64,000 nt of DNA from Carboxylicivirga caseinilyticus (GTDB lineage: Bacteria > Bacteroidota > Bacteroidia > Bacteroidales > Marinilabiliaceae). Positions 282 through 62,957 of this stretch are shown piece after piece; within the stretch, counting starts at the first letter, position 1; each line of letters starts with the position of its first letter. The stretch lies in the NCBI GenBank assembly GCA_025499705.1, contig JAFMVE010000016.1, positions 1 through 64,000 on the forward strand. The letters are read 5' to 3'. The position numbers were made by a program, and so were the translations under genes. The notes under the pieces were generated by a model that worked only from the letters and a program-made list of their open reading frames with translations, ran no database searches and was not told where the DNA came from.

Positions 282-2897
282 ATGTTATGCAAAAAAATTT
301 ACTTCGCTTTTGCAACGGCTTTTACACTTGTTGTTAATACAATGGGACAACAGCTTCATGTCCCTGTTAATTACTCCAGCATTCAGACTGCTATCAATGC
401 AGCAACTGAAGGTGATACTGTTTTGGTAGCTGAAGGTACCTATTACGAGAACATTAACTTTAATGGCAAACCCATTACCGTGGCCAGTCAATTTATACTA
501 GATGGAGATACCTCGCATATTTCCAAAACCATTATTGATGGTAGTCAGCCTGCAAATACAACAAAAGCATCTGTTGTGACTATTACCAATATACCTAATG
601 GTAAAGCAACATTAACGGGTTTAACCATAACAGGTGGCTCAGGCTCATATGTCTATTTTGTTAATGCAGGAAGATATATGGGTGGAGGCATCTATATCAA
701 TGGCAATGGTGCAATTATTTCAAACAACCATATTCAAAAAAATATCTTGTCAAGAAATGTAAATCTACATGCTGCCGGAGTTGCAGCTATTTTAAGCGAG
801 AATGATACCTTAATTGTTGAAAATAATTTAATAGAGAAAAATGAGATAATATCTGATAAAATGTGTGGAGGTGGAGGTCTGTGGATCTTTTCTGGAAGAA
901 ATTCATTTATAAGAGTTCATGACAATACAGTTCAATTTAACAAGGTTACCAGCAGTGCCGATTATAAAGTTACTGCTGGTGGAATAGCGGTCAATACAGA
1001 GTATGCTTATGAGGCGGATGTTCAGATCTATAATAATATTGTATCGAATAATGAATTACATTGCTTATCAAGCATTGGAGCCGGAATTTATGTGACTTAT
1101 AATAGATTTGATGTAACCCCATTAACTTCAACCCAAGTTAGAATTTTTAATAACATTATTTCAAATAACTATTCGCAGGACAAAGGTGGAGGTATTGGAG
1201 TCTGGAATCTGGCATACGATATGGTTTCCAATTCTTTGAATTATCCTGCCGACCCTGTCATTGTCAATAATACCTTGTATGGAAATGAAGCAACCGAAGG
1301 TTCAGGTGTATTTAATTACGATGCAAAAACTGTAATGATTAATAATATTTTATGGGATAATATTCCTTCTTTATCAGGAATGGAAATTTTTCAGGATAGT
1401 ATTGATGATTATAATTTCCCAAACGGACCTTATTGGCCAATTCGCAAGAATTTTGGAACTCTGCATTTAAACAATAACTGCATAAAAGGTGGATGGCAAC
1501 CCGGCCAAGAAAATGTATGGGAAGGTACATGGATTGGAGAAAATAATATTGATTCAGACCCGATACTTAACACTGAAACCTTTGAATTATCAGAAGATAG
1601 TAAATGTATTGGAGCCGGAGTAGATTCCATTCAAATTGATGATGCGTGGTATAAAGCACCACCTTATGATTTTAACGATAGTATTCGTCCACATCCAGTT
1701 GATAAATTTATGGACATTGGTGCTATTGAATCACCTTATGCAAATACACCTTATTTCTATCTCGATGAAAATGGAGTAACCATAAAATGCCTCCGTTGCC
1801 AACCAGGCGATAAAGGAATTGTAGGCGAAAAAGAATACGAAGCTGTAGACAGGGCTTTACTTGAACAACGCCGGGATGAGGACGCTGATTTAACCATACT
1901 GTGTACTTCGTTGGTCACTGATATGGGTAGTCTATTTTATAGAATGTCAGAGTTCAATCAGGATATCAGCTCCTGGGATGTGAGTAAAGTGATAAATATG
2001 TGGGGTATATTTAGCGATGCTCGTAGTTTCAATCAGGATATCAGCTATTGGGACGTAAGCAATGTATCTAATATGACTTCAATGTTCTCTTCTGCAACTT
2101 CATTTGATCAAGACATAAGTGGATGGAATGTGAGTCATGTTACAGATATGGGTGGGATGTTTAGTAACGCAGAAAACTTTAACCAGAATATTGGTTCCTG
2201 GAAAGTAAGTAATGTGACTGATATGGGTCGTATGTTCAATGCAGCAGCTTCATTTAATCAGCCCATAAGTGATTGGGATGTAAGTAATGTTACAGATATG
2301 AAAGCAATGTTTTCAGGGTATTATATACCTGATCAACCGTGGCCTGTGGTTGTAAACATGAAATTTAATCAGGATATCGGTGATTGGGATGTGGGTAAGG
2401 TTACTGATATGTACAGCATGTTTTCCTGGGCCAAAGATTTTAATCAGGATATTGGTGACTGGGATGTAAGTCAAGTAACTTATATGGGCCAAATGTTTAA
2501 TAAAGCTGAGTCTTTTAACCAGGATCTTTCTAATTGGTGTGTACAAAATATTACTAGTGAACCTGATAATTTTGCAACTGATTGTCCTTTACAAACAGAA
2601 TATTACCCGATTTGGGGATCCTGTCCACCTGCAACCATAATTATAAATAATAATGAGACAAAAGACAAGATTGCCGTTTCTCCCAACCCAATTAAATCAA
2701 CAGCTTTAATAGAAACAGTTGCAGATAAACCAATCCAACGATTCGAACTGATCGATCTTACAGGCAAAGTGGTTCGTAATTATAGCAACATCAACAGCCA
2801 TAAAACCGAAATTAACTGCAGCCAATTGAATAGCGGACTTTACCTGTTAAAAGTTTATGCTGATAAGGTTTATATTAGAAAGGTGATGATAGAATAG
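282..2897 (+). CDS. Secreted beta-helix / BspA-like (DUF285) repeat protein with T9SS sorting tail
   Basis: This is an 871-residue surface or secreted protein. An N-terminal signal peptide (about residues 1-22) is followed by a parallel beta-helix of the pectate-lyase-like type (about 25-480). That part starts with a segment resembling the common SIQTAINAA...GDTVLVA...Y.E opening and has many asparagine ladders (NNI/NNT). Next come eight DUF285/BspA-type repeats of the form FNQDIS.WDVS.VT.M...MF (about 558-760). The last 80 residues start near SPNP and end LNSGLYLLKVYADKVYIRKV, a type IX secretion sorting domain that directs export across the outer membrane. The beta-helix suggests carbohydrate contact, but I see no convincing catalytic residues, so an adhesin role is equally likely. 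It is a single-gene unit with its own promoter and terminator. Confidence 0.88.
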   Translation: MLCKKIYFAFATAFTLVVNTMGQQLHVPVNYSSIQTAINAATEGDTVLVAEGTYYENINFNGKPITVASQFILDGDTSHISKTIIDGSQPANTTKASVVTITNIPNGKATLTGLTITGGSGSYVYFVNAGRYMGGGIYINGNGAIISNNHIQKNILSRNVNLHAAGVAAILSENDTLIVENNLIEKNEIISDKMCGGGGLWIFSGRNSFIRVHDNTVQFNKVTSSADYKVTAGGIAVNTEYAYEADVQIYNNIVSNNELHCLSSIGAGIYVTYNRFDVTPLTSTQVRIFNNIISNNYSQDKGGGIGVWNLAYDMVSNSLNYPADPVIVNNTLYGNEATEGSGVFNYDAKTVMINNILWDNIPSLSGMEIFQDSIDDYNFPNGPYWPIRKNFGTLHLNNNCIKGGWQPGQENVWEGTWIGENNIDSDPILNTETFELSEDSKCIGAGVDSIQIDDAWYKAPPYDFNDSIRPHPVDKFMDIGAIESPYANTPYFYLDENGVTIKCLRCQPGDKGIVGEKEYEAVDRALLEQRRDEDADLTILCTSLVTDMGSLFYRMSEFNQDISSWDVSKVINMWGIFSDARSFNQDISYWDVSNVSNMTSMFSSATSFDQDISGWNVSHVTDMGGMFSNAENFNQNIGSWKVSNVTDMGRMFNAAASFNQPISDWDVSNVTDMKAMFSGYYIPDQPWPVVVNMKFNQDIGDWDVGKVTDMYSMFSWAKDFNQDIGDWDVSQVTYMGQMFNKAESFNQDLSNWCVQNITSEPDNFATDCPLQTEYYPIWGSCPPATIIINNNETKDKIAVSPNPIKSTALIETVADKPIQRFELIDLTGKVVRNYSNINSHKTEINCSQLNSGLYLLKVYADKVYIRKVMIE
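1953..2565 (+). repeat. Eight in-frame 25-residue BspA/DUF285 repeats
   Basis: The coding sequence repeats a 75-base unit whose protein core is FNQDIS.WDVS.VTDM. Spacing is 25 residues. The unit after the fifth copy carries an extra insertion of about 12 residues around YYIPDQPWPVV. The DNA of the units is similar enough (for example recurrent TTTAATCAGGATAT) to allow slippage or recombination in copy number. Confidence 0.85.
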
Positions 2898-2925
2898 AAA
2901 TGATAAGAATTTAAATTAATATTTA

Positions 2926-2957
2926 AAGTCTTGAATATCTTCTTCAAGACTTTTTTT
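2926..2957 (+). terminator. Terminator after the BspA-like gene
   Basis: Inverted repeat AAGTCTTGAA / TTCAAGACTT followed by a run of T residues. Confidence 0.85.
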
Positions 2958-3095
2958 ATTTTACAACAATCACTTCTAAACCGTAGATTAAACTCATAGA
3001 CTTAATACCTCTATTAAAAATAACAAATTATTCTTGTTAAAATCAATTAATCTTTTCTACTTTGTACTTCAAAGTTCTTTTTTATACCATTTACT

Positions 3096-5576
3096 ATGAA
3101 AATAAAATTAACTAACATTCAGGCAATAGGCATATTCCTATTCATTGCTTCAATCTTTATTTATTATCTAACTTCATTAGTATCTAATAACGATGCTCCT
3201 GTCTTCTTCATTAACTATATACTAGCTTCCTTCTACTTTCTGCTTTCATTTGGAGATTTAAAAAAAGGTTCGAAAGTATATAAAATGAAAATTCCCAGAT
3301 TAAACTGGCATATATTACTTTCTATCCTCGCAGTGAGTTGTTTTACATTAAATAAGACCATTGAAATTTTTACAAGTATACCAACATGGCTTGAAATTCT
3401 TCTATTCATAGGCCTATGTTCTTATATGATAATTGGAAGCCAGATTGAAATGCCAAAGTTTGCCAGCTATACATTCTCATTCTTTAGCGGCATCTCAATA
3501 ACAATATTCCTCTATTATTCCATTATTTTAATCCCGTTTGCTCCTTTTGCTATTATTGGTCTATTTCTTCTTGGCTTGAGCATTCACTTACTGATTCCTT
3601 ACTTCCTCTTGGCTACAACAATTGTTACTTTATACAGAAAGTTTATTAATGCACATATTAAGTCGGCCTTATTTGGAGTTTTGTTTGCCTTACTTTTCAC
3701 AATCACTTACGTATCCATATACTCCTATCATCAAAAGAAAATCGAATCATCTATAATAAACATAGTACTAGAGGAAAAAGAGGATTTACCTGACTGGATT
3801 AGCTATGCCCAAAATTGCCACTCAGAATATTGGACTAAAAGAATTATTGGTCACGAACTATTATACGATGTGATTAAAAATTCATGGTGGAGTATGGGCT
3901 TTAACACAGGATCATTTTCAGAATTAAAAGTTCATGATCCTCTGGTTTCAATTTCAGCAGCATTCAACAAAACAATTTCATTAAGTAGAAAAGAGCGTAT
4001 AAAAATAATCAACTCCATAACAGACTCCAGACATTACTCATACGAAAAACTATGGTCAGGAAAAGACTTAAATCAAAGCAATAAACTAACAGACATCAGA
4101 ATATATCCGGAATACCGAATTGCTTATGCAGAACTTAATATCTGGACAACCAATAATAACAAATGGGAAAACAATCGACAGGAAGCCTTATATACTTTTC
4201 AATTACCTGAAGGTGCCGTTGCTACATCTCTATCACTATGGATAAATGGTAAAGAAGAAAAATCAAGGTTAACAACCCGAAAAAAAGCAGCAAATGCATA
4301 CAAAACAGTTGTAGGTGTAGAGTTAAGAGATCCTGTTGTTTTACATTGGCAGGAAGGAAACAGATTAACTGCAACCATCTTCCCTTGTACTCCCAAAGAA
4401 GCACGAAGATTAAAAATCGGTTTTACCATTCCGCTTAAAAAGATTGATAACAAATTATTTTTTGATAACATAAGACTTCAAGGCCCCGACAGTAAATTTA
4501 TGAGCGAAACCATTCACCTCAAAATAGTCGGAGAATCAAACAACCTTGAACTTCCTTCTTTTTTCAAACAGGAAAACAATAACCAATATATTTTTAACGG
4601 TAGTAAAAGAAATGACTGGAAGTTAAGCATGTCAGCTCCCGTTTTATCAGACAATAGCTTTAGCTTTAATAAGAAATCATTTAAGATGGTACCATTACAA
4701 TACCAATCAAGTTTAAAACCTCAGTCAATATATCTCGACATAAATAAGTCGTGGAATAAAAGTATTATTAGGACTATCATTAACAAAGCCAATAACATAC
4801 CCGTTTTTGTATATGATAATGAAATGCTTCAATTGACAAATGAAAACAAGGACCACATTATAGATAGGCTGTTGAAAAATAGTTTTTCAATATTTCCTGT
4901 TCATAAAGTTACCCATTCTAATGCATTGTTAATTACAGAAGGAAACATCCTATCTCCTGTTCCTTCTGAACTAAAAGGCTCTTCATTTTATAAAGTATTA
5001 ACAAATTATATTGGACAAACGGAAAGTGAATTAAAAACCATTGTTATTGATGGAAAAAAATCAGCATACATAAGCACACTAGAGCAATACAAAGCTTTGG
5101 ATTGTCAAAATATTTCAGAAAAAACCATTAAAGAACATTCCATAGACAAATGGTTTAAAGAATATAACATTGAAGATAAAGCTGTAACACTGTCAATGTC
5201 AGAAGTACAAATTGTTCCAGTTGATCAATCTGAAGAAGATATTACAAAAAAAGAAGCTCCGTCTCATCTCATGCGTCTTTATAATTATCATTCAATACTT
5301 CAACAGGCAGGACATCTCTTTCTTCAGGATGAAATTGAAATACCAGAAAAAATTTACGACCTGTGTCAGGAAGCATATATTGTCTCTCCAATTTCAAGCT
5401 TAATCGTTTTAGAAACCATTGAAGATTATAAACGATTTAATATTGAGAAGAATAAAAACAGCTTACAAAATGCAACATTGAAAGATTCAGGAGCGGTACC
5501 CGAACCTGAAGAGTGGGCATTGATTCTAACATTGGTTATAATAATAACTATATCATATCTGAAATTTAGAAAATAA
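3096..5576 (+). CDS. XrtN-system VIT domain protein with PEP-CTERM-like tail
   Basis: This 826-residue membrane protein has about six hydrophobic segments in the first 215 residues, then an extracytoplasmic region. It contains a VIT (vault/inter-alpha-trypsin) domain at about residues 335-450, with typical phrases such as YPEYRIAYAELN and the RKKAANAYKTV...DPVVLHW core. The C-terminus has the three-part exosortase signal: a VPEPEEW motif, one hydrophobic helix, and the short basic end LKFRK. It lies 14 bases upstream of an exosortase gene and is very probably its substrate. From what I recall of the XrtN families, the exosortase occurs with just this kind of neighbour. The role of the sorted protein is unknown. 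No Shine-Dalgarno is seen, as usual in this phylum. Confidence 0.88.
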   Translation: MKIKLTNIQAIGIFLFIASIFIYYLTSLVSNNDAPVFFINYILASFYFLLSFGDLKKGSKVYKMKIPRLNWHILLSILAVSCFTLNKTIEIFTSIPTWLEILLFIGLCSYMIIGSQIEMPKFASYTFSFFSGISITIFLYYSIILIPFAPFAIIGLFLLGLSIHLLIPYFLLATTIVTLYRKFINAHIKSALFGVLFALLFTITYVSIYSYHQKKIESSIINIVLEEKEDLPDWISYAQNCHSEYWTKRIIGHELLYDVIKNSWWSMGFNTGSFSELKVHDPLVSISAAFNKTISLSRKERIKIINSITDSRHYSYEKLWSGKDLNQSNKLTDIRIYPEYRIAYAELNIWTTNNNKWENNRQEALYTFQLPEGAVATSLSLWINGKEEKSRLTTRKKAANAYKTVVGVELRDPVVLHWQEGNRLTATIFPCTPKEARRLKIGFTIPLKKIDNKLFFDNIRLQGPDSKFMSETIHLKIVGESNNLELPSFFKQENNNQYIFNGSKRNDWKLSMSAPVLSDNSFSFNKKSFKMVPLQYQSSLKPQSIYLDINKSWNKSIIRTIINKANNIPVFVYDNEMLQLTNENKDHIIDRLLKNSFSIFPVHKVTHSNALLITEGNILSPVPSELKGSSFYKVLTNYIGQTESELKTIVIDGKKSAYISTLEQYKALDCQNISEKTIKEHSIDKWFKEYNIEDKAVTLSMSEVQIVPVDQSEEDITKKEAPSHLMRLYNYHSILQQAGHLFLQDEIEIPEKIYDLCQEAYIVSPISSLIVLETIEDYKRFNIEKNKNSLQNATLKDSGAVPEPEEWALILTLVIIITISYLKFRK

Positions 5577-14772: not shown

Positions 14773-16884
14773 ATGAAAAAGAAATTAAACAAAGAACTGG
14801 GATTGTTTGATGTTTTTGCCATTAGCACCGGAGCCATGTTCAGCTCGGGTTTCTTTTTACTTCCGGGTATAGCTTCACACTACACAGGCCCTTCCGTTTT
14901 CCTGGCATATATGGTTGCAGGCGTGTTGATTTTACCAACCATGTTCAGTATTGCTGAAATATCAACAGCCCTGCCACGATCCGGTGGAGCATACTTTTTT
15001 CTTGATCGTAGTCTGGGACCTTTATTTGGCACCATTGGAGGATTAGGAACTTACTTCGCATTGATGCTGAAAACGACCTTTGCCATTATTGGTATTGGTG
15101 CTTATGCTGCACTTTTCTGGAATGTTCCGACCAAGCTAGTTGCCATTGTTGCCACAATTTTCTTTATGGGCTTAAACCTGATTGGCGCAAAAAAGACTTC
15201 TGCCTTTCAAAAAATATTTGTTGTTTTTTTATTGGTCATATTAGTCACTTTTATTGCTGACGGACTTTATTCAATCTTCTTTAATGAATCTGTTAGCCAG
15301 ACTTCCTTTGAAAGTCAGTTTACTCCGTTTATGTCTAACGGATTGGGTGGTTTATTTACATCAGCTGGATTTGTTTTTGTTTCATACCTGGGATTAACTC
15401 AGATAGCCAGTGTTGCTGAAGAAATAAAAAACCCTGAACGAAACATACCACTAGGTATGACTTTATCCTTGATTGTTACAGGACTTATTTACGGTGTCGG
15501 CGTTTTTCTGATGGTTGGCCTAATCGACACGGAATCATTTTCTCAGGAAATGGCACCTGCTGCAGTAGCTGCTTCCAAAATATTTAGCTGGCTTCCCGAA
15601 AATACTGGAGTAATACTAATGTCGATTGCCGCTTTGGCAGCATTTGCTTCCACGGGTAATGCCGGTCTTTTATCGGCCTCACGGTATCCATTTGCCATGG
15701 GAAGAGATAAATTACTGCCAGCCGTTTTGTCTAAAATATGGGGAAAAGGAACTCCTGCTGTTGCCATCTTATTCACAACCATCTTTATCATTTTATTTAT
15801 TCTACTATTGTCGGAAGAAGGCATTGTAAAACTGGCCAGTACCTTTCAATTGCTGATTTTTATATTTATCAATTTCTCAGTTATCGTATTCCGAAACAGT
15901 AAAATTGAATCATACGATCCGGGATATACTTCACCTTTATATCCTTTTATGCAGGTAATTGGCATTATCATTTCCTTCTTATTAATAATCTATTTGGGTT
16001 GGATGCCTATTCTTTTCACTGCCGGAATTATTGTGATGGCTGTGATTTGGTATCATGTTCATTCGCGTGGAAAAGTTAAACGCGAAGGAGCAATTTTTCA
16101 CTGGTTCGCCCTGCTGGGACAATACCAATACGATGAGTTGGAAAACGAACTTATGACCATTTTAAAAGAAAAAGGACTAAGAGAAGGTGATCCTTTTGAC
16201 GAAACCGTTATTAACTCAAGAATAAGCATTGTAAAAACACCTACCAATCTGGGTGAGATTCTGGATAAGGTAACTGATTATTTTAGAACTGAATTGCAGT
16301 GTGATAAGCAAACCTTACGCGACAGGTTTGTACATTCTTTAGATGAAGATTCAGTAGTTGCTTTGCCCGGAGTATTGGTTTTTCATGTCAAAAGCAAAAA
16401 TGTACTGCACCCTTCGATCTATACCATCGTTAGTAAAGAGGTGATTAAAGATGTAACTCCGTTTAAAAATCCGGAACCCTTTGCGCCTATACATATTTGC
16501 TGCTTTCTGATTAACTCCGATGAAAATCCAAAACAGCAATTACGCATGCTTTCCCGCTTGGTTGACATTATGGAAAGACCGGATATGGTGCAACACCTTA
16601 TTAAAATGGACAGCCACCGTGCTATTAAGGAGTATATGTTACAAAACGAACGTTTTATCAGCATAAAACTATTGAAAGAAACAGCTCAGTCATCAATGAT
16701 CGGACTTCAACTGAAAGAAGTAACGCTACCTAAAGATGTTTTGGTTGCCTTAATTGAAAGAGACAACAAAACATTTGCTCCAAACGGATCTACTGTTTTG
16801 CAGGAAGATGATATACTTACTATTCTGGGTGAAGAAAAATCAATATCCAAACTATTTAAAAGTTATATCAGCAATAATCTTTAA
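14773..16884 (+). CDS. APC-family permease with PTS-EIIA-like and TrkA-C domains
   Basis: This transporter has about 12 membrane helices in the first 430 residues. They start with ELGLFDVFAISTGAMFSSGFFLLPG, the APC helix-1 pattern with an unwound GAMFSSG. A cytoplasmic tail carries a PTS EIIA type-2-like domain (about 470-625) and ends in a TrkA-C/RCK-C domain (about 630-700; VLVALIERDNKTFAPNGSTVLQEDDILTILG). RCK-C domains bind small ligands, so gating by a nucleotide or cation is plausible. The EIIA-like part has no obvious phospho-histidine in the usual place, which I treat as uncertain. I chose the ATG at 14773 over an in-frame TTG six bases earlier. The substrate is probably an amino acid or a cation-coupled solute. 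Confidence 0.85.
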   Translation: MKKKLNKELGLFDVFAISTGAMFSSGFFLLPGIASHYTGPSVFLAYMVAGVLILPTMFSIAEISTALPRSGGAYFFLDRSLGPLFGTIGGLGTYFALMLKTTFAIIGIGAYAALFWNVPTKLVAIVATIFFMGLNLIGAKKTSAFQKIFVVFLLVILVTFIADGLYSIFFNESVSQTSFESQFTPFMSNGLGGLFTSAGFVFVSYLGLTQIASVAEEIKNPERNIPLGMTLSLIVTGLIYGVGVFLMVGLIDTESFSQEMAPAAVAASKIFSWLPENTGVILMSIAALAAFASTGNAGLLSASRYPFAMGRDKLLPAVLSKIWGKGTPAVAILFTTIFIILFILLLSEEGIVKLASTFQLLIFIFINFSVIVFRNSKIESYDPGYTSPLYPFMQVIGIIISFLLIIYLGWMPILFTAGIIVMAVIWYHVHSRGKVKREGAIFHWFALLGQYQYDELENELMTILKEKGLREGDPFDETVINSRISIVKTPTNLGEILDKVTDYFRTELQCDKQTLRDRFVHSLDEDSVVALPGVLVFHVKSKNVLHPSIYTIVSKEVIKDVTPFKNPEPFAPIHICCFLINSDENPKQQLRMLSRLVDIMERPDMVQHLIKMDSHRAIKEYMLQNERFISIKLLKETAQSSMIGLQLKEVTLPKDVLVALIERDNKTFAPNGSTVLQEDDILTILGEEKSISKLFKSYISNNL

Positions 16885-53558: not shown

Positions 53559-55175
53559 ATGAGCAACTTATCCCTTTTTCAACAATTTGCACCGAAAGTC
53601 CCTGAAAAATTCAAGGAGGGTAACAATGCGGTAATTTATACAAGAGTTTCATCGGCAGACCAGGAAGATAATACAAGTCTTGGTTCTCAGAAAAAGCATT
53701 GCGAAAAGTTTGCTGAACGAAGGGGATTAAATGTTGTAGGCTATTTTGGTGGGACTTACGAATCAGCCAAAACTGATGACCGTAAAGAATTCAACAAGAT
53801 GCTAACCTTTGTAAAGAGGTCAAAAAGCATTAATTACGTAATCGTATATTCTTATGAGCGCTTTTCTCGCTCAGGTATTAATGGAGCTTCTATTGCAAAT
53901 GACTTAATCAAAAAGCATGGGATTATTACATTAGCAGTTACGCAAGAATTAGACCCAACAACTCCTGCTGGCTCGTTCCAACAAAATATTCTTTTCCTTG
54001 TAGGGCAAATGGACAATGAATTGAGGCGAGATAAGGTAGTAACCGGAATGAAAGAACTGCTAATAAAAGGACATTGGGTTTGGGCTGCTCCAAGAGGTTA
54101 TACTGACCTCAATAAAGGAAAAGCAACTGAGCGTAATTTAGTAATAAATGACGAAGGTAAAATATTAAAGAAGGCTTTCGAATGGAAAGCATATAAACAA
54201 ACTCCTAATGCAGAAATATCTCGTAAATTAAAAACATTGGGTGTTGATATCTCTGAAAAAAGATTACACAACCTATTTACAAATCCGTTTTACTGTGGTT
54301 TAATTACAAGCAAAATGCTACCGGGTGAGGTTATTGAGGGTCGTCATGAACCAATGGTCACTCGTGATTTGTTTTTACAAGTAAATAATATTCGACAGGA
54401 AAATAGAGTTCATGGCTTTGTGCATGACAAAGACAATGAGAATCTGCCATTAAAAGTATTTACAAAGTGTGAGAAATGTGGAAAGCCAATGACCGGATAT
54501 TTGGTTAAAAAGAAAGGAATTTACTATTACAAATGCAGAACGAAAGGTTGCAGAGTGAATAAAAGTGCCAAATCATTGCACCAAATGTTTCAGAATTTAG
54601 TTTCTGCTTTTCATATCGACAAAGATGAGCAAGAAGTAATCAAGGTCGTACTATCAGAACAAATGAATGTATTTTTCAAATCGAAGAGTGAAGACTCAAA
54701 AAAACTAAAAGCTCAAAAAAGTGAAGTACAAAAGAAACTGGATGCAATCGAAGAAAGGTTTGTTATCGGAGAAATAGACCGTTCATTATATAATAAGTTT
54801 AAGCCTAAATTCGAGAAAGAAATTATCGAAATTGAGCAGGAATTAAATTCAATGGGCAATTATAGTTCGAACCTCAATAAAGCTTTGAAATTTGTCACTA
54901 AAATAAGTTCTAATTTATTGAATATGTGGGAATCACTTAGTATTGACAGTAAGAAAGTATTCCAAAAAATGCTATTCCCCGAAGGAATTTACTACAATCA
55001 CGAAAACAACCAAGTTCGAACCCCTCGTGTAAATTCTTTTTTCTCTCTAATCCCTGAACTGGCAAGGTACACAGAAGGACATAAAAAAGGGGATTTTATC
55101 AATAATGACAAAATCCCCGCTTTTGTGATCCCGAAGGGACTCTTTAAATTTCGTAATCTATTTTGTTTTAAATAG
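53559..55175 (+). CDS. Large serine recombinase (island integrase)
   Basis: This 538-residue site-specific recombinase has an N-terminal resolvase domain with the catalytic Ser in IYTRVSSADQEDNTS, the conserved Arg in YSYERFSRSG and LRRDKVVTGMK. The recombinase domain reads RGYTDLNKG...GVDISEKRLHNLFTNPFYCGLI. A zinc-ribbon (CEKCGKPMTG...CRTKGCR) and a long coiled coil (about 375-435) follow. These large enzymes integrate and excise elements without a tyrosine integrase. The last 25 residues overlap a 9-bp-stem hairpin and look unlike the family, so the end may be read-through. It most probably mobilises the 22.4-55.5 kb island. Confidence 0.93.
   Translation: MSNLSLFQQFAPKVPEKFKEGNNAVIYTRVSSADQEDNTSLGSQKKHCEKFAERRGLNVVGYFGGTYESAKTDDRKEFNKMLTFVKRSKSINYVIVYSYERFSRSGINGASIANDLIKKHGIITLAVTQELDPTTPAGSFQQNILFLVGQMDNELRRDKVVTGMKELLIKGHWVWAAPRGYTDLNKGKATERNLVINDEGKILKKAFEWKAYKQTPNAEISRKLKTLGVDISEKRLHNLFTNPFYCGLITSKMLPGEVIEGRHEPMVTRDLFLQVNNIRQENRVHGFVHDKDNENLPLKVFTKCEKCGKPMTGYLVKKKGIYYYKCRTKGCRVNKSAKSLHQMFQNLVSAFHIDKDEQEVIKVVLSEQMNVFFKSKSEDSKKLKAQKSEVQKKLDAIEERFVIGEIDRSLYNKFKPKFEKEIIEIEQELNSMGNYSSNLNKALKFVTKISSNLLNMWESLSIDSKKVFQKMLFPEGIYYNHENNQVRTPRVNSFFSLIPELARYTEGHKKGDFINNDKIPAFVIPKGLFKFRNLFCFK
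55083..55125. terminator. Terminator-like inverted repeat inside the recombinase 3' end
   Basis: GGGGATTTT (55089-55097) and AAAATCCCC (55110-55118) form a nine-base stem flanked by A and T runs on either side. It lies in the last 30 codons, which is an unusual place. Confidence 0.45.
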
Positions 55176-55401
55176 TTGTAAAGCACTTAAAATCAAGGTC
55201 TCGATATAGTCTCTTCTGATATTGAGAACTTTTGATTACAAATATACAATGAATGTATGCAATGTGAAAAAATACTTGGATTATATTTTAAAACCACCCT
55301 TTACTGATACAATTCTCCCCTTTACTTTCTACGCGGGCTTTGACAGTCTTAAAAATCAGGTTATTATTGAGTCTCATGTTATAACCTTAAATGTGACAAT
55401 T

Positions 55402-55530
55402 ATGAAAATTGGTTATGCAAGGGTAAATGGCAAATATCAGAATTTGGAGATGCAAATTGAAACATTGAATAAAACAGGTTGTACTAAAATCTTTCAGAGA
55501 ACAAAAAGTGTATTAAAAGAATGTCCGTAA
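55402..55530 (+). pseudogene. Resolvase N-terminal remnant
   Basis: A 42-residue frame starts MKIGYARVNGKYQNLEMQIE and ends KTGCTKIFQRTKSVLKECP. It is the first part of a small serine resolvase/invertase (normally about 190 residues), with the catalytic Ser replaced by Asn (YARVNGKYQ instead of YARVSTxxQ). Downstream frames do not continue it. It is dead by truncation and active-site loss. Confidence 0.7.
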
Positions 55531-55683: not shown

Positions 55684-57210
55684 ATGGAAAAAATTGACAA
55701 TATAGAACTTGTTTATTTAAAACCAAGTGATTATGATGAATTAAAAAATGCAATGTTGGAGGCATATGCTAATTTACAAAATGCATACTGGAAGCCCAAC
55801 CATATTGACACATTAGTTGCTAAATTTCCTGAAGGGCAGGTAGTAATAAAAATAAATGATGAATTTGCTGGATGTGCGTTGTCAATAATTGTTGATTATG
55901 ATAAGTTTGATAATAAGCATACTTATAAAGAAATTACAGGCAATTACTCATTTGATACCCATACTAATGATGGAGATATATTATATGGCATAGATGTTTT
56001 TGTTCGCCCCAAGTTTCGAGGATTGAGACTTGGAAGAAGACTATATGATTATAGAAAGGAACTCTGTGAGAGATTAAATCTGAAAGGAATTGTTTTTGGA
56101 GGGCGAATCCCGAATTACTACAAATACATTTCAGACTTAACACCTAAAGAGTATATTGATAAAGTTAGAAGAAAAGAAATTCATGATCCAGTTCTTGACT
56201 TTCAGATGTCTAATGATTTTCATCCGGCTAAAGTATTAAAAGGATATTTAGAAGGCGATCACGAATCAAATGAGTACGCTGTATTATTAGAATGGGATAA
56301 TGTTTATTATGAAAAACCAACTAAGAAGGCGGCTATAAAAAAGAGTATTGTTCGATTAGGATTGGTCCAATGGCAAATGAGATTATATAAAGATTTACAT
56401 GAAGTTATGCAGCAAGCTGAATACTTTGTAGATGCAGTTTCTGGTTATAGAGCTGATTTTGCATTGTTTCCAGAATTTTTTAATGCTCCATTGATGGCAA
56501 AGGCAAATCATTTATCAGAACCTGATGCAATAAGATATTTAGCTCAATTTACATCTGAAATTGTTAATAAATTCTCGAAATTATCCATATCATATAATAT
56601 TAATATAATTACTGGCAGTATGCCAGAATTAATTGATAATGAGTTGTATAATGTTGGATATTTATGCAAGAGGGATGGAGGAGTTGAAAGATTTGAGAAA
56701 ATACATGTTACACCTGATGAAGCAAAGGTTTGGGGGTTACAAGGAGGAAATACATTAAAAACTTTTGATACAGATTGTGGTAAAATTGGAATCTTGATTT
56801 GTTATGATGTTGAGTTTCCTGAATTGAGTCGATTATTAGCTGATGATGGTATGGATATTCTTTTTGTACCATTTTTAACTGATACACAAAATGGTTATTC
56901 AAGAGTACGAAATTGTGCACAGGCAAGAGCAATTGAAAATGAATGTTTTGTTGCCATTGCTGGAAGTGTAGGGAATCTTCCAAAAGTTCATAATATGGAT
57001 ATTCAATATGCACAATCAATGGTATTTACACCATGTGATTTTTCATTTCCAACAAATGGTATAAAGGCAGAAGCAACGCCAAATACCGAAATGATATTGC
57101 TTGCTGATGTTGATATTAATTCTTTAAGAGAATTAAACCAGTTTGGAAGTGTAAGAAATTTAAAGGATAGAAGAACAGATATATTCAAATTAGAAAGAAA
57201 TAGTAAGTAA
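55684..57210 (+). CDS. GNAT acetyltransferase / carbon-nitrogen hydrolase fusion
   Basis: This 508-residue bifunctional protein has a GNAT N-acetyltransferase in about residues 8-200, with the acetyl-CoA loop VRPKFRGLRLGRRLYDYRK. A nitrilase-superfamily amidase occupies about 225-495, with the triad Glu264 (FPEFFNAPL), Lys339 (FEKIHVTPDEAK) and Cys373 (LICYDVEFPE). Such fusions are widespread, but their natural substrate is not established. It is followed 20 bases later by the giant transporter gene. Confidence 0.92.
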   Translation: MEKIDNIELVYLKPSDYDELKNAMLEAYANLQNAYWKPNHIDTLVAKFPEGQVVIKINDEFAGCALSIIVDYDKFDNKHTYKEITGNYSFDTHTNDGDILYGIDVFVRPKFRGLRLGRRLYDYRKELCERLNLKGIVFGGRIPNYYKYISDLTPKEYIDKVRRKEIHDPVLDFQMSNDFHPAKVLKGYLEGDHESNEYAVLLEWDNVYYEKPTKKAAIKKSIVRLGLVQWQMRLYKDLHEVMQQAEYFVDAVSGYRADFALFPEFFNAPLMAKANHLSEPDAIRYLAQFTSEIVNKFSKLSISYNINIITGSMPELIDNELYNVGYLCKRDGGVERFEKIHVTPDEAKVWGLQGGNTLKTFDTDCGKIGILICYDVEFPELSRLLADDGMDILFVPFLTDTQNGYSRVRNCAQARAIENECFVAIAGSVGNLPKVHNMDIQYAQSMVFTPCDFSFPTNGIKAEATPNTEMILLADVDINSLRELNQFGSVRNLKDRRTDIFKLERNSK

Positions 57211-57230: not shown

Positions 57231-60200
57231 ATGGCTAAAGCTAAAAAATTTGGGACATTTAGTGGTGTTTTTACACCATCAATTTTGACCATTTTAGGTG
57301 TAATAATGTACCTAAGGTTTCCTGCCATAATCGGGCAGGCAGGTTTAATAAATACTATTGGAATAATAGTTATTGCACATATCATATCAATAACTACAAG
57401 TTTAAGTGTAGCCTCCCTTTCAACAGACAAACCTGTTCAAACAGGTGGAACATACTTTATGATTTCACGAAGTCTTGGGTTACCCATTGGAGGAACACTT
57501 GGATTAGCCTTGTTTGTAGGTCTATCATTTAGTGTGAGTCTTTATTTAATAGGTTTTGCAGAAAGTTTTCTTCAATATTGGGGTATGGATGTCAATATTA
57601 ATACCATTAGAATTACAGGTTCAATTGTATTATTTATTGTTACAACCATTACATTTATTAGTACTTCATTAGCAATTAAATCCCAATATTTTATTATGGC
57701 AGCAATTGGTCTGTCATTATTGTCTATTTTTTTAGGGAAACATGAGTTCGTTCCTGAAGCAGTACACTTGACTCCATTGGATAGCGCTGCTCCTTTTATG
57801 GTCTTATTCGGTATATTCTTCCCTGCTGTTACAGGCTTTGAAGCAGGGGTTTCTATGTCAGGTGATTTAAAAGATCCGAAAAAATCATTGCCCGTGGGTG
57901 CAATGTTGGCAGTAGGAATTGGGTTTGTTGTATATCTTGGTTTGGCATTATTTTATTCATTTACAGTAGATGCTAATGCTCTCGTAAACGATCCTCAAAT
58001 CCTATTTAAGATTTCATTGGTTCCTTCATTAGTAATTGCAGGAATATGGGGAGCAACTTTATCATCAGCGTTAGGAAGTATATTGGGGGCTCCAAGAATA
58101 CTTCAAGCTATTGCAATGGATAAAATTGCACCTCGTTTTTTATCAAAAGGAACAGGTAAAACGAATGAACCTAGAAATGCTCTACTACTTGCTTTTGTAA
58201 TAGCAGAAGCAGGTATTTTAATTGGAGAACTTGATCTTATAGCGCGTATTGTATCAATGTTTTTTATTACTACATACGGCTTCCTAAATTTGGCTTCTGC
58301 AATCGAAAGTTGGTCTAGTTCTGACTTTCGTCCTGCATTTAAAATCCCCCGATTTATTAGCTTAATTGGAGCTTTATCAGCCTTTATCGTTATGATCCTA
58401 TTGGATTTTCTGGCTCTGGCTGGGGCAACCATTGTATTAGGCTTGTTGTATTTTTATCTTCAGCGAAAAGAATTAATTCTTGAAAGTGGTGATGCGTGGA
58501 GCAGTTTTTGGACTAATATGGCAAAAAGGTCTTTACTTAAACTTAGTTATAGAAAGGATAATAAGAGAAATTGGAGGCCAAACATTATTCTATTTAGTGG
58601 TGGAGAGAAGGCTAGACCTCACTTAGTTGAATTAGGTATGGCATTAACCGGTAAATTAGGAGCATTAACTGACTTTAATTTATCAACCGGTAAAAGAGTT
58701 AACGTTACAGATATTAAAAAAGACTCTCAAAAAAAGAATAAAAGCAAAGGATATTTTGAACGAGAATTAAAATGCACAGATTTACCAGATGGAATAAAAA
58801 CTGTAACCAGTATTTATGGTTTTAGTGGATTTGAACCTAATACCGTTTTACTGGGTTGGACTAAGAACCTCGATAATACAGTTTTTCTAACTGAGATACT
58901 AAAAGATCTAAGGAAGAAAATGTTGAATGGCTTATTTCTTGATTATGATATAAATAAAGGGTTTGGCAATAAAGAAACAATTGATATTTGGTGGAACGGT
59001 AAAGGTTCTCACCTGTCATTATCTCTTAATATTCTACGATTTTTGTTGTCAGATTATCAATGGAGAGACGCATTTGTTCGAATAATTATCATAAATAATG
59101 ACACTGCTCTTGAAGATTCTATTTATCGAAACACTTATGCCTTACTTCAAGATAAACGTATGCAAGCGGAAGTAAAGGTTTTAAGTAACGATTTTGGAAC
59201 TAGAAAGCTTGAAGAAATAATACAAACTGAGTCGGCTAATACTGATTTATTATTTTTAGGTTTATCTCCTAAAGAAAAATCATACAAACCAGAGTATATT
59301 GAAAAAATTAATTCAATATGTCAGTTACCCTGCAGTGTATTAATTCTAAGTCCATCTCCAGAGTTTGAGGAAACAAATATTGTTGACAAATCTAAAAATA
59401 GTCCTTCATTAATTTCTTATGAAAATTTGGAATTGAGAGAACTTCCCTCAATTGATGTTAGTCTTTTAAAAAATAAGATTGAGAATCTTGATATTGAGTT
59501 GATGTCTATTGGTCAGGATTTTTATAGCAAAACATTCGTTGGATCTTTGCAGCAATTTAATACTTATTTAACAACATTAAAGGATTTAGTAACTCAGGTT
59601 CTTAAATCATATCGCAAAGATTTGAGTATTGCAAAAAGCTATGAGTATGAAAAAGTTGTGAGTAGATTTCAAACTGCCTTCTTAAAAAACACTTTAGATG
59701 TATTGAGGAATGAAAGTCTTCAGTATATGAAAGAAACTGAAAGTATTTTACAAAGAGGATTAAGTGATTTATTGACTAAACTTGGAAATTTTGTTTATGA
59801 ATCACCTGAGAATATCTCAATACCTTTTTCTTCATCAATAAATAAAAAACAAAAGCTTGTAAATTTCCCGTTAAGAAAAGCAATATCATTTTATTTCGAG
59901 TACGATTTAAAATCTAAAATTAATGACATATTATTTTCATTTGAGGAACAATCAAAAGACATTCATGAAGAATTGCGTAAGTTGATTTTTGCAACGAACG
60001 ATATTTTTGAAAAGGTTGATTTAGATCAAATAGTCGGAAATAATGAGCAAGTTTCTGAAATTGCTCAATTGCTCGAAGGATTCAATTCAGTTAAATCAAA
60101 AATAGAATTTAATGAAATCAGTTTGTTAAAGGAACTTCAAAATGAAATTCGTGAGATAGTTATAAGTTTAGCAAATGACCTCCAATCGCAAGAAAATATT

Positions 60201-62234
60201 AAACATGCTAAAAAGAAATACAAGCAAAGACCAATTTTAGCTGACGAAAATATAGACAGTTTTACTGAAAATTGGAGCCTTGGAATTCACCTTTTAAACA
60301 ATTCATTCTATTTCGATATTTTAGTTCTTTCAAAAAAAATTGTTTTTAGTAATATTATTAGTAAAGGAAGTATTAAGCTTTCTAAAATTGTAAATGAGCA
60401 ATTCTTTAATAAGCAAAGAATACTTATCGAAAATATTAGAAAAATAATAAATGACCCTAAAAGTGTAACAGAACCTGTACTTTTTGAAGAGAATTCAAAC
60501 CTTAAATCTCTCTTAAATGAATCTTACGAAAAGGCGGTATCTGTTTTTGATGATTTACCAGAGGAATACTTTTTGCCAGAAAAGGTTTATAAGGATGGTA
60601 AATTTATTCCTTTTAATGATTTTTCACAGGTTAATGTAGACTTGTATAAATCATCTAGGTATAACATAGATGTTTATTTTCATGAATCTCTTTATCGAGA
60701 AATTGAAGAGTTGGAATTTGCTATTCGAAATGCGATTATTGAATCAAAAGAAGCTAATAGTATGCAATTGTTTCATAGTAATAATACTCAGGAAGATTCA
60801 ATTGATTATGACAGAGAGATAGACAAAAAAATATTTCAAAAATTTTTAAAACAACTAGAACAAGATAATACAAAAATAGAAAAATTAATAGAGCGAATTA
60901 ATCGTTCAACAGACAACTATTTGAGCGATGCTTTTTCTAAGATATTTTCACATTCTATTGTTGACCTAGATAAGGATGGGCACTCTGATTATATGAGAAG
61001 CCAAAGTGGTGTAAGGTTATATAGAAATAAGATTAAAGAATTCATTAACAGGCATGTGAAAAGTGTTTTAGTCTTTATTTTAAACAGAAGTAGCAGAGGA
61101 ATTATTTTGTCAAAGAAATATCTGGAGGAAAAAACAAGTTCTGGAATTCAAACTAAGGAAATACTTGATTTGATAGACCAATTAGTCCCTGATCGTAAAT
61201 ATTATAATTCTATTCCTGTATTTTATAGAAACCTAATGAGTAGCAGTGCAAAAATTAGCGATGAATTTTGGATTACCAGAGAAGAAGAAATGAAAATTAT
61301 TAAGGACTCATTAAATAGACATAGAAAGGGATATGGTGGAGCTGTGTTTATTACAGGTGTTCATGGAGCTGGCAAATCTACAATCTCACGTTACGCTGTT
61401 AACCGATTGTTTAAGTCGCATAATGTAATCTGGATTAATGCACCGATTGAAGGTTCAAGTAACTCTGAAGTTTTATTGAATGAGATTAAAAAGCATACAG
61501 GTGAATTAGAAGATTTTTCCGGCATATTCAATAATCTTCCTTATGAGACAGTAATTGTATTTAATGATCTTGAACTATGGTGGGAACGAAGAAACGGAGG
61601 AGGAGAAGTCATTGATCAGATAATTGAATTAATAAAACTTTATAGTCAAAAAATATTTTTCATACTTAATATTAATACTTATGCGTATGATATTCTGAAG
61701 CAAATTTACCCTATTGAAGAATATAGTTTGGCAAACGTTAAGTGTGTTCCATTTAACTCTGCTGAGATACAACAAATGATCTTACAGAGACATAAATCAA
61801 GCGGCATAAATTTAACTTATATGGGAAAGCAAGAGCAATCTATTTCTCAATTAACATACTCGCTTTTATACAATCGTTATTTTACAATGAGTGATGGTAT
61901 TCCTGGAGTTGCAATTAATATTTGGAAAGCTAACATTAGAAGTCTTAACAATGATAATATTGAAATAAGAAAACCGCAGAAGATCAACTATGATGTGTTG
62001 TTTGATATGCCAAAAGAGTGGATGATTGTTTTGGCAATAATGATACATCACAAAAACATTGGAATTGAGAAGTTAGCTAGAATTACTAATTATACTTCTG
62101 ATAAAGCAAAACATATAATTTTCGCCTTGGAGAATTCGGGTTTAATTGTTAAAAAGTCAGAGGTGGTTTATACAATAGGTCGAAATATCGAACCGTTTGT
62201 GGTGGAAGTTTGTAAAACGAAAGGTTTAATTTAA
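57231..62234 (+). CDS. Giant SLC12-like cation-chloride cotransporter fused to a P-loop ATPase
   Basis: The fusion is 1667 residues long. Residues 1-420 are a 12-helix APC-superfamily permease of the SLC12 type: GTFSGVFTPSILTILGVIMYLRF, GGTYFMISRSLG, PAVTGFEAGVSMSGDLK. Residues about 430-710 resemble the SLC12 cytoplasmic domain (NIILFSGGEKARPHLVELGM; LLFLGLSPKEKSY). Residues about 730-1320 are mostly helical, with no known domain. Next comes an AAA/STAND-type ATPase: GVHGAGKST (Lys1382), Walker B TVIVFNDLELWW (Asp1446). A winged-helix-like end follows (about 1590-1660; GIEKLARITNYTSDKAKHIIFALENSGLI). Fused ATPase and permease suggest ATP- or ligand-gated ion cotransport. It is coupled to an MscS-like gene. 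Confidence 0.85.
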   Translation: MAKAKKFGTFSGVFTPSILTILGVIMYLRFPAIIGQAGLINTIGIIVIAHIISITTSLSVASLSTDKPVQTGGTYFMISRSLGLPIGGTLGLALFVGLSFSVSLYLIGFAESFLQYWGMDVNINTIRITGSIVLFIVTTITFISTSLAIKSQYFIMAAIGLSLLSIFLGKHEFVPEAVHLTPLDSAAPFMVLFGIFFPAVTGFEAGVSMSGDLKDPKKSLPVGAMLAVGIGFVVYLGLALFYSFTVDANALVNDPQILFKISLVPSLVIAGIWGATLSSALGSILGAPRILQAIAMDKIAPRFLSKGTGKTNEPRNALLLAFVIAEAGILIGELDLIARIVSMFFITTYGFLNLASAIESWSSSDFRPAFKIPRFISLIGALSAFIVMILLDFLALAGATIVLGLLYFYLQRKELILESGDAWSSFWTNMAKRSLLKLSYRKDNKRNWRPNIILFSGGEKARPHLVELGMALTGKLGALTDFNLSTGKRVNVTDIKKDSQKKNKSKGYFERELKCTDLPDGIKTVTSIYGFSGFEPNTVLLGWTKNLDNTVFLTEILKDLRKKMLNGLFLDYDINKGFGNKETIDIWWNGKGSHLSLSLNILRFLLSDYQWRDAFVRIIIINNDTALEDSIYRNTYALLQDKRMQAEVKVLSNDFGTRKLEEIIQTESANTDLLFLGLSPKEKSYKPEYIEKINSICQLPCSVLILSPSPEFEETNIVDKSKNSPSLISYENLELRELPSIDVSLLKNKIENLDIELMSIGQDFYSKTFVGSLQQFNTYLTTLKDLVTQVLKSYRKDLSIAKSYEYEKVVSRFQTAFLKNTLDVLRNESLQYMKETESILQRGLSDLLTKLGNFVYESPENISIPFSSSINKKQKLVNFPLRKAISFYFEYDLKSKINDILFSFEEQSKDIHEELRKLIFATNDIFEKVDLDQIVGNNEQVSEIAQLLEGFNSVKSKIEFNEISLLKELQNEIREIVISLANDLQSQENIKHAKKKYKQRPILADENIDSFTENWSLGIHLLNNSFYFDILVLSKKIVFSNIISKGSIKLSKIVNEQFFNKQRILIENIRKIINDPKSVTEPVLFEENSNLKSLLNESYEKAVSVFDDLPEEYFLPEKVYKDGKFIPFNDFSQVNVDLYKSSRYNIDVYFHESLYREIEELEFAIRNAIIESKEANSMQLFHSNNTQEDSIDYDREIDKKIFQKFLKQLEQDNTKIEKLIERINRSTDNYLSDAFSKIFSHSIVDLDKDGHSDYMRSQSGVRLYRNKIKEFINRHVKSVLVFILNRSSRGIILSKKYLEEKTSSGIQTKEILDLIDQLVPDRKYYNSIPVFYRNLMSSSAKISDEFWITREEEMKIIKDSLNRHRKGYGGAVFITGVHGAGKSTISRYAVNRLFKSHNVIWINAPIEGSSNSEVLLNEIKKHTGELEDFSGIFNNLPYETVIVFNDLELWWERRNGGGEVIDQIIELIKLYSQKIFFILNINTYAYDILKQIYPIEEYSLANVKCVPFNSAEIQQMILQRHKSSGINLTYMGKQEQSISQLTYSLLYNRYFTMSDGIPGVAINIWKANIRSLNNDNIEIRKPQKINYDVLFDMPKEWMIVLAIMIHHKNIGIEKLARITNYTSDKAKHIIFALENSGLIVKKSEVVYTIGRNIEPFVVEVCKTKGLI

Positions 62235-62246
62235 TTCTTTGTGAAA

Positions 62247-62957
62247 ATGATAGTCAGTTTTGTAATAGTATCAGCGGTTATTTTTGGCTTTTATAGGTTA
62301 CTAAATTTAGTTTTAAGCAAATCATCCCGTAAGCTTAAAATAAAATATCATTTAAAAGAAATTTTAATGATCTCTGAGTTAATGATATGGTTCTCACTGT
62401 TGGTTTGGATTGCCAAGGATTATTATGAAGTGCAAAATTATTTTGCACTAGCATCTATTCTGAGTGTTTTTCTTTTATTAATAATTCTACTATTTCCATT
62501 ATTGAAAAATTTAATTTCCGGAATTATTTTTAAATGGCAGAATAAAATAACGGAGGGTGTATTTATTGAAGCTGATGAGATAGTAGGTTTTGTAAAAAAG
62601 GCCGGGCATTTAAATATGGAAATTGAAGATAATCATGGAGATATTTATAATGTGTTGTACACAAAAATCAATCAAAAAACTATTTCTAAACCTAGTAATA
62701 ATCATAATCTTATTAAAACAACATTAACTTTTTCTTTTTCTACTTTTGTAAGTAAAAATGAAGTGCTTTCAAAGTTGAAACGTGAATTAATGAATACACC
62801 TTGGACAGCAGTATCACAACCTCCGATAATTGAAAGCTCCCAAATAACAGAAGGAACATTAACTATAGAGGTGGCTGTTTTTTTAATTGATCTGGTTTAT
62901 GTCGAAGATGTAAAATCTGCGGTTGATAATTATTTCAAGATGAATTCTGGTTTGTAA
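62247..62957 (+). CDS. MscS-like membrane protein
   Basis: This is a 236-residue protein from the ATG at 62247 (a GTG two codons earlier is possible). Three hydrophobic helices precede FPLLKNLISGIIFKWQNKITEGVFIEADEIVGFVKKAGHLNMEIEDNHGDIYNVLYTKI. That is the pore-lining helix and beta domain pattern of mechanosensitive MscS channels. It is a short form with a modest C-terminal domain. It follows the cotransporter-ATPase gene closely and suggests a joint role in osmotic or ionic balance. Confidence 0.75.
   Translation: MIVSFVIVSAVIFGFYRLLNLVLSKSSRKLKIKYHLKEILMISELMIWFSLLVWIAKDYYEVQNYFALASILSVFLLLIILLFPLLKNLISGIIFKWQNKITEGVFIEADEIVGFVKKAGHLNMEIEDNHGDIYNVLYTKINQKTISKPSNNHNLIKTTLTFSFSTFVSKNEVLSKLKRELMNTPWTAVSQPPIIESSQITEGTLTIEVAVFLIDLVYVEDVKSAVDNYFKMNSGL

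Follow-up and report, generated by a model that had tools for sequence, protein, structure and literature searches.

The window analysed here, a stretch of 64,000 nucleotides from Carboxylicivirga caseinilyticus (contig JAFMVE010000016.1), contains a single unbroken open reading frame on the plus strand that runs from an ATG at position 57,231 to a stop codon at 62,234 and encodes a protein of 1667 residues. According to Pfam, phmmer, AlphaFold2 and Foldseek, this protein combines an SLC12 permease, a CCC-type cytoplasmic domain, a helical stalk, an AAA+/STAND-like ATPase and a winged helix. A sequence-only reading of the window had placed an SLC12-type cotransporter and a signalling-type ATPase in one chain of this length, and the intact frame together with the domain and fold assignments confirms that arrangement. 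After a gap of 6 nt, a partner gene follows on the same strand (62,241–62,957; 238 aa from a GTG at 62,241, with an in-frame ATG at 62,247). Judging from a PF00924 match and the predicted fold, it encodes a small MscS-type channel. A promoter and terminator scan gave scores near the shuffle means.

The fusion is neither a chance product nor an assembly artefact, because Plebeiobacterium sediminum encodes a 1667-aa protein that is 82% identical to the window protein and because both ends, SLC12 and ATPase, lie together in 43 single frames (window included). No pair of these 43 frames is identical over the last 300 residues.

The SLC12 (cation-chloride cotransporter) permease occupies residues 1–430 (57,231–58,520, +), where Pfam AA_permease matches residues 13–413 with an E-value of 1e-47. 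NCBIfam TIGR00930 (‘K-Cl cotransporter’) covers residues 2–547 with an E-value of 2.4e-113, its score of 380 bits lying below the full-length cut-off of 953. Comparison of residues 1–700 with solved KCC and NKCC chains gave the best match to KCC4 (E = 9.1e-76; residues 2–170 and 182–692), and the KCC4 and NKCC1 alignments of the permease both have E-values of about 1e-75. Since residues 1–700 match KCC and NKCC chains, the protein contains the cotransporter-type cytoplasmic domain that the sequence-only reading had proposed. We place it at residues 431–700 (58,521–59,330, +; phmmer to SLC12A2, A6 and A5 chains). Queried by itself as residues 430–730, this domain matches SLC12A2 (E = 2.4e-9) and SLC12A6 (E = 5e-6). 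Pfam SLC12 (PF03522) gave no match in the window protein at E-values up to 1 and scores above its cut-off in the relative L023. Permease and cytoplasmic domain are thus common to the window protein and the SLC12 cotransporters (KCC4, NKCC1 and archaeal MaCCC), whereas the window chain runs almost 1000 residues further, with the stalk and the P-loop ATPase.

For human NKCC1, the sections of the source used here describe a Na+ site at Ser613/Ser614, a K+ site formed by Tyr383, Pro496, Thr499 and the backbone of Asn298/Ile299, and a Cl- site at Gly301–Met303 (PMC7889885). Relative to the sites named in those sections, alignment gives Ser278/Ser279, Tyr105, Pro198, Thr201, Thr20/Ile21 and Gly23–Ile25 as the window equivalents; Asn298, whose contact is described there as made via the backbone, corresponds to Thr20. 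Among 40 fused proteins of more than 1600 aa, the window protein being one of them, Pro198 is kept in all 40, Ser278 and Thr201 in 38 each, and Ser279 and Tyr105 in 37 each. KCC4 has Gly-Ala where the window protein has the serine pair. Because the NKCC1 site residues are kept and KCC4 departs from them at the serines, we predict that the SLC12 domain is NKCC-like (Na+, K+, Cl-) and not KCC-like. Most ion-site residues are missing from the SLC12-fused protein of L037, which to judge by this loss may carry another substrate, or none. A further distant permease with 26% identity to the SLC12 part lies at 14,908–16,089 (+) of the window, in a frame of about 706 aa.

Beyond the cytoplasmic domain lies the helical stalk (residues ~740–1325; 59,448–61,205, +), which AlphaFold2 models as long helices, mostly at pLDDT 70–93, with low confidence at residues about 1247–1305. 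The sequence-only reading had seen about 600 residues of helices here that hold no known domain, and had not linked them to an ATPase family. By hhalign, the stalk matches the N-terminal part of transporter-free ATPases with an E-value of 2.7e-20 over 401 columns (40 versus 51 sequences), compared with 0.027 for a control with reversed sequences. The equivalent part of the antiporter-fused proteins described below is matched as well (E = 2.1e-16, 7 sequences), and a more distant group of 11 more weakly (E = 4.6e-6). Given this homology to the N-termini of transporter-free ATPases, the helices belong to the ATPase family. Among the best 50 Foldseek matches of the model of residues 701–1667, we recognised none to the stalk alone, and the top ones (Orc/Cdc6, RuvB and similar) are without a comparable stalk. 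Short ATPase-only forms that adjoin MscS genes exist in L089, L090, L107, L108, L110, L111, L116 and L118 (298–433 aa from the first start codon; open frames 440–466), and the stalk can therefore be lost.

The P-loop ATPase core (residues ~1326–1586; 61,206–61,988, +) was delimited from the family alignment, AlphaFold2 and Foldseek (Orc/Cdc6, Apaf-1, CED-4). It carries the Walker A motif GVHGAGKST (residues 1376–1384; 61,356–61,382, +), whose lysine is Lys1382, and the Walker-B-like motif IVFNDLELWW (residues 1442–1451; 61,554–61,583, +), in which the Asp of FNDLELWW is residue 1446; both residues had been numbered correctly before. The chain closes with a winged-helix-like domain (residues ~1587–1667; 61,989–62,231, +) that was assigned from AlphaFold2 secondary structure and aligns across the family, in agreement with the earlier suggestion of such an end. 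In the AlphaFold2 model of residues 701–1667 (mean pLDDT 79.8, pTM 0.51), a long helical stalk leads into an alpha/beta ATPase fold and the winged-helix-like end.

In the proteins tested, no Pfam or NCBIfam model spans the ATPase family over its length. AAA_16 scores 32.2 bits in the window protein, just below its cut-off of 32.6, and nSTAND_NTPase5 scores 22.5 bits, well below its cut-off of 34; these sub-threshold AAA/STAND matches lie at residues about 1341–1414. PF00004 (AAA) passes its cut-off in the relative L037. Searching the PDB with an ATPase sequence profile yielded no more than two weak matches, so we used fold comparison instead. The best-ranked Foldseek match of the 701–1667 model was an archaeal ORC2 (TM-score 0.46 by target; E = 1.1e-7), with Apaf-1 at rank 29 and CED-4 at rank 50 lower among the best 50 matches. 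The ATPase and winged helix are therefore shared, by predicted fold only, with Orc/Cdc6, Apaf-1 and CED-4, whereas the helical part in front and the end of the chain directly after the winged helix set the window protein apart from these AAA+/STAND-like ATPases. STAND NTPases usually carry C-terminal sensor or scaffold repeats. The window protein has no such repeats after its winged helix, and since the curated Pfam scores also fall below their cut-offs, we call the ATPase STAND-like and not STAND.

A winged helix at the end of a membrane protein could point to a membrane-tethered transcription switch, in which the SLC12 part or the stalk senses ions and the ATPase and winged helix bind DNA near the membrane. 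STAND-type transcription activators act on DNA in solution. Such a switch would agree with the predicted winged-helix-like end, which aligns across the family, and with top Foldseek matches that are DNA-binding Orc/Cdc6 proteins. However, a winged helix is usual in Orc/Cdc6 and STAND ATPases and need not bind DNA, it also persists in relatives that have no transporter and are mostly paired with a channel, and the transporter retains site residues that would be superfluous in a pure sensor. We consider a transcription switch quite unlikely.

Relatives were collected by searching 60 related genomes (13 with a match), 395 genomes of the phylum (77 with a match) and 198 genomes of the order (42 with a match; 29 of 47 match rows in frames of at least 1650 aa), and by a genome contig search that yielded 10 loci, one of them from a Calditrichia bin. 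The genomes of the phylum and of the order were sampled and do not represent complete sets, and the order-search match rows of G044, G477 and G467 are not among the loci fetched with flanks. The fetched loci hold 139 ATPase frames, and our counts use the 133 that score at least 100 bits; of the six left out, two have an MscS neighbour, one lies at a contig edge and three have none.

By type, 43 of the 133 frames are fused to SLC12, 7 to an antiporter and 83 to neither. Stalk and ATPase form a family in its own right, mostly without a transporter (83 of 133). Neither this family nor the downstream MscS-type gene had featured in the sequence-only reading. Seven of the 83 frames (L020, L087, L127, L140, L145, L177 and L187) are cut at their 5' end, so that a transporter may be out of sight there. 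A separate SLC12 gene directly upstream of the ATPase occurs in two loci, both among the 83: L025 has overlapping frames of 467 and 1270 aa, and L181 has frames of 514 and 1198 aa that are 72 nt apart. A consistent gene split among homologues had been named earlier as an argument against a functional fusion. With the split form in only 2 of the 45 loci that hold both parts, the survey does not refute such a fusion. The parts are nevertheless separable, because two high-scoring relatives have no SLC12, namely L026 (with MscS) and L178 (without MscS). The 1540-aa frame of L082, which is probably overlong at its start, overlaps another gene in a high-GC record and was kept in the counts as a frame without an MscS neighbour.

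The seven antiporter-fused loci (L075–L079, L134 and L176) encode a Na+/H+-exchanger-type antiporter fused to the stalk-ATPase. PF00999 itself was tested on L075 only, where it identifies the antiporter, and the other six were assigned by a profile built from five members of the class. All seven loci also contain TrkH, TrkA-like and MscS-type genes and a second antiporter-like gene, with the TrkH, TrkA-like and antiporter-like genes on the same strand. In L075, TrkH is recognised by Pfam with an E-value of 2.1e-55 and the TrkA-like protein by NCBIfam TrkA models with an E-value of 3.7e-19, below their cut-offs; the neighbours in the six other loci were named by similarity to L075. The second antiporter-like protein has 414–422 residues and resembles the antiporter by hhalign (E = 1.3e-13). 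TrkH, TrkA-like and MscS-type genes in these operons indicate a role in K+/Na+ and turgor control, and we regard the antiporter-fused operon as a putative K+/H+ module, which we have not met as described before.

On an ATPase tree (FastTree, 123 of the 133 frames), SLC12 fusion corresponds to three changes and antiporter fusion to one (support 99), with the labels of L025 (split, as SLC12), L080 (apart) and L177 and L187 (unlabelled) set by hand. The SLC12 and antiporter fusions thus seem to have separate origins. In L080 (6065–10459, −), the ATPase stands behind an 11-TM part to which Pfam assigns nothing, and the operon also contains MscS, TrkH and TrkA; this is perhaps a third kind of transporter fusion. 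We rejected the 11-TM part as an antiporter relative, since hhalign against the antiporter profiles gave E-values of 0.13 and 0.36.

The presence of TrkH and TrkA-like genes in the antiporter-fused operons invites comparison with Trk/Ktr, where the nucleotide state sets a secondary K+ transporter; the window system would be alike in the sense proposed below. The nucleotide-binding regulators TrkA and KtrA are Rossmann-type ring proteins and not P-loop ATPases, and we know of no MscS partner in the known Trk/Ktr systems.

The PF00924 (MscS beta domain) match of the window partner is marginal, with 20.5 bits against a cut-off of 20.2. Foldseek of its predicted structure (pLDDT 79, pTM 0.41) returned MscS, MscK, YbiO and YnaI, the best match being MscS (E = 1.2e-10 over 236 columns, gaps included), with low TM-scores of 0.3–0.44 by query that speak for the fold class and not for detail. 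By domain and fold class, the partner is predicted to be an MscS-type channel. It shares with such channels three N-terminal helices, the beta domain and a C-terminal alpha/beta part, whereas the partners of the SLC12-fused form are small and divergent: 33 of 34 measure 233–261 aa, and the other one (208) is cut by a contig end. PF00924 was found at E-values up to 0.01 in 42 of the 44 partners tested.

An MscS-type gene lies adjacent and on the same strand in 120 of the 133 ATPase frames (34 of 43 SLC12-fused, 7 of 7 antiporter-fused, 79 of 83 others); eight frames have no adjacent MscS-type gene and five lie at a contig edge. By comparison, only 10 of 703 other genes of these loci have an MscS-type neighbour, a background that leaves out the ATPase partners themselves. 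The MscS profile used here was seeded with the window partner and then extended on the basis of similarity, without use of gene position. ATPase and MscS genes are separated by a median of 6 nt between the last sense codon and the first possible start. Of 122 adjacent MscS genes, 108 overlap or lie within 20 nt, two frames being flanked on both sides; these gaps are shortened because frames begin at the first possible start codon. Six of the 43 SLC12-fused genes (L022, L036, L155, L159, L164 and L171) have no MscS-type neighbour, and L157, counted as a contig edge because of its upstream side, has no MscS-type gene downstream either. In L036, a 463-aa frame with a P-loop (2240–3628, −), which by eye resembles another ATPase, follows the fused gene and replaces MscS.

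Of the 43 SLC12-fused proteins (window included), 42 have the Walker A Lys, the exception being L023 with Arg, and so do 7 of 7 antiporter-fused proteins. In frames without a known transporter this Lys is found in only 50 of 81 and replaced by another residue in 31, two more frames that end before the motif not being counted. The Asp1446 column of the SLC12-fused proteins holds D in 37, N in 5 and E in 1 of 43. The sequence-only reading had counted P-loop loss in most relatives as evidence against a functional fusion; the fused proteins have kept it, and a functional fusion again survives. Going by these motifs, the transporter-fused forms seem more strictly bound to nucleotide use. Not every member of the family needs ATP hydrolysis, because only 50 of the 81 frames without a known transporter keep the Lys. 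L029–L032 are transporter-free, have a replaced Walker A Lys and adjoin larger MscS genes (328–429 aa); their ATPases are perhaps non-hydrolysing relatives.

These counts bear on the idea that the ATPase is an assembly or turnover factor. As a chaperone-like AAA+ protein, it would then serve the assembly, insertion or remodelling of the MscS-type channel, along with any attached transporters, and would not gate transport. Its AAA+-like fold and the fact that the channel, rather than the transporter, is the usual partner (120 of 133 frames) would both suit such a factor. However, 31 of the 81 frames with no known transporter have another residue at the Walker A Lys position, which is a poor fit for a motor, and the fusion to transporters would be left unexplained. 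We rate an assembly factor as improbable.

A congener (genome G003, locus L028) has an SLC12 part with 80% identity to that of the window protein, in a frame of 896 aa that matches up to residue 893. This 12-kb locus yielded no further ATPase sequence and no MscS-type gene. ATPase and channel were thus apparently lost together while the transporter was kept, as expected if ATPase and channel cooperate. The same locus can also be read in favour of mere co-expression, with transporter, ATPase and channel all serving salt stress without acting on one another and the fusion providing equal amounts: here the transporter persists alone, and contact between the parts is in any case our proposal. Against this stand the fusion of one stalk-ATPase family to two different transporter types and the Walker A Lys that nearly all fused forms have retained. 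Co-expression alone therefore seems an unlikely explanation.

The module is present in 35 of 57 genomes searched in family f49 and in 42 of 198 genomes of the order. Within f49, a homologous divergent gene lies upstream in 34 of 36 fetched loci, which indicates that the module mostly keeps its position, even if many genomes do not have it. The sequence-only reading had considered a membrane-based defence switch. Here, the STAND-like ATPase would sense infection and open the MscS-type pore or the transporter, so that growth stops. STAND-type ATPases are common in defence, the distribution is patchy, and PADLOC weakly matches the ATPase of antiporter-fused L075 to mads_8 (E = 2.6e-5). However, PADLOC returned no match for the window protein, its partner, L101, L029 or L083; the usual neighbours are MscS-type genes, joined in the sister lineage by TrkH and TrkA-like ion transport genes; and the shared upstream gene makes the module look inherited in place and not exchanged. 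We therefore rejected defence as the main reading, with PADLOC blank for both window proteins, and hold it to be very improbable. The ion sensor and the ATP-gated transporter, also raised in the sequence-only reading, would both fit the gene context.

We propose that the locus is a two-gene module for ion and osmotic homeostasis, with a nucleotide-dependent switch that controls both an NKCC-like symporter and a mechanosensitive valve, and we assign this reading a probability of about 0.5. The first gene would supply a Na+-coupled K+/Cl- symporter that bears its own regulator, the stalk leading to the AAA+/STAND-like ATPase and winged helix, and the second gene a small mechanosensitive channel of MscS type. 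Relayed by the stalk, the nucleotide state of the ATPase would turn the symporter on or off, on meaning that salt is taken up when the cell needs a higher osmolarity. The ATPase would also be coupled to the MscS-type channel, which vents ions as tension rises, with the result that uptake and release would not work against each other. The homeostasis role is backed by context, whereas we infer the mechanism, namely that ATP is hydrolysed, which ions are carried, and that the ATPase controls the symporter and contacts the channel.

This homeostasis module is favoured because MscS-type genes adjoin 120 of 133 ATPase frames against 10 of 703 background genes, because TrkH and TrkA-like genes are neighbours, because ion sites and the Walker A Lys are kept, and because L028 is without both ATPase and MscS-type gene. 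Several observations speak against it. Gene adjacency is no proof of contact, and fusion and operon could serve co-expression alone. Six of 43 fused genes are without MscS, L028 has the symporter alone, and L026 and L178 are without SLC12. Most ion-site residues are missing in L037, and of the 81 frames with no known transporter only 50 have the Walker A Lys. The window genome has two other SLC12 genes (738 and 744 aa), neither of them beside an MscS-type gene.

Nucleotide control of the SLC12 class has a possible precedent, in other form, in KCC1 and NKCC1, since the portion of the source used here reports that the KCC1 cytoplasmic domain binds ATP or ADP and that both stabilise NKCC1 (PMC8280820). 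As described there, the KCC1 site is in the cytoplasmic domain itself and so differs from the P-loop of the window protein.

A wider reading is that stalk-ATPases are a common hub coupling an MscS-type channel to the transporter of the lineage, either beside it or fused, which would cover both the NKCC-like SLC12 and the CPA-type antiporter with TrkH and TrkA and would make the window system a nucleotide-switched cell-volume regulator. Animal cotransporters set cell volume and are controlled by outside kinases; the window system would be their bacterial functional counterpart, with the switch apparently in the same chain as the cotransporter and the pressure valve in the next gene. We put this forward tentatively, at clearly less than even odds. 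Our literature search (titles and abstract openings, mainly open-access, no preprints) found no description of the stalk-ATPase family, no MscS-ATPase gene link, no account of the control of bacterial SLC12 relatives and no MscS-ATPase-transporter arrangement; the parts are already known, and the arrangement is apparently new. If the homeostasis reading is true, the locus offers a two-gene system for testing coupled salt uptake and mechanosensitive release by reconstitution, and gives a context to an ATPase family without a full-length Pfam or NCBIfam model.

Upstream of the module, a large serine recombinase (Resolvase, Recombinase and zinc ribbon) is encoded at 53,559–55,175 (+), followed by a short frame at 55,222–55,530 (+); together they are a possible mobile element. 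The gene at 55,684–57,210 (+), a GNAT acetyltransferase fused to a carbon-nitrogen hydrolase, ends 20 nt before the fused gene. In Plebeiobacterium (L018), a 508-aa frame is equal to it in size and place, a likeness by position and size.
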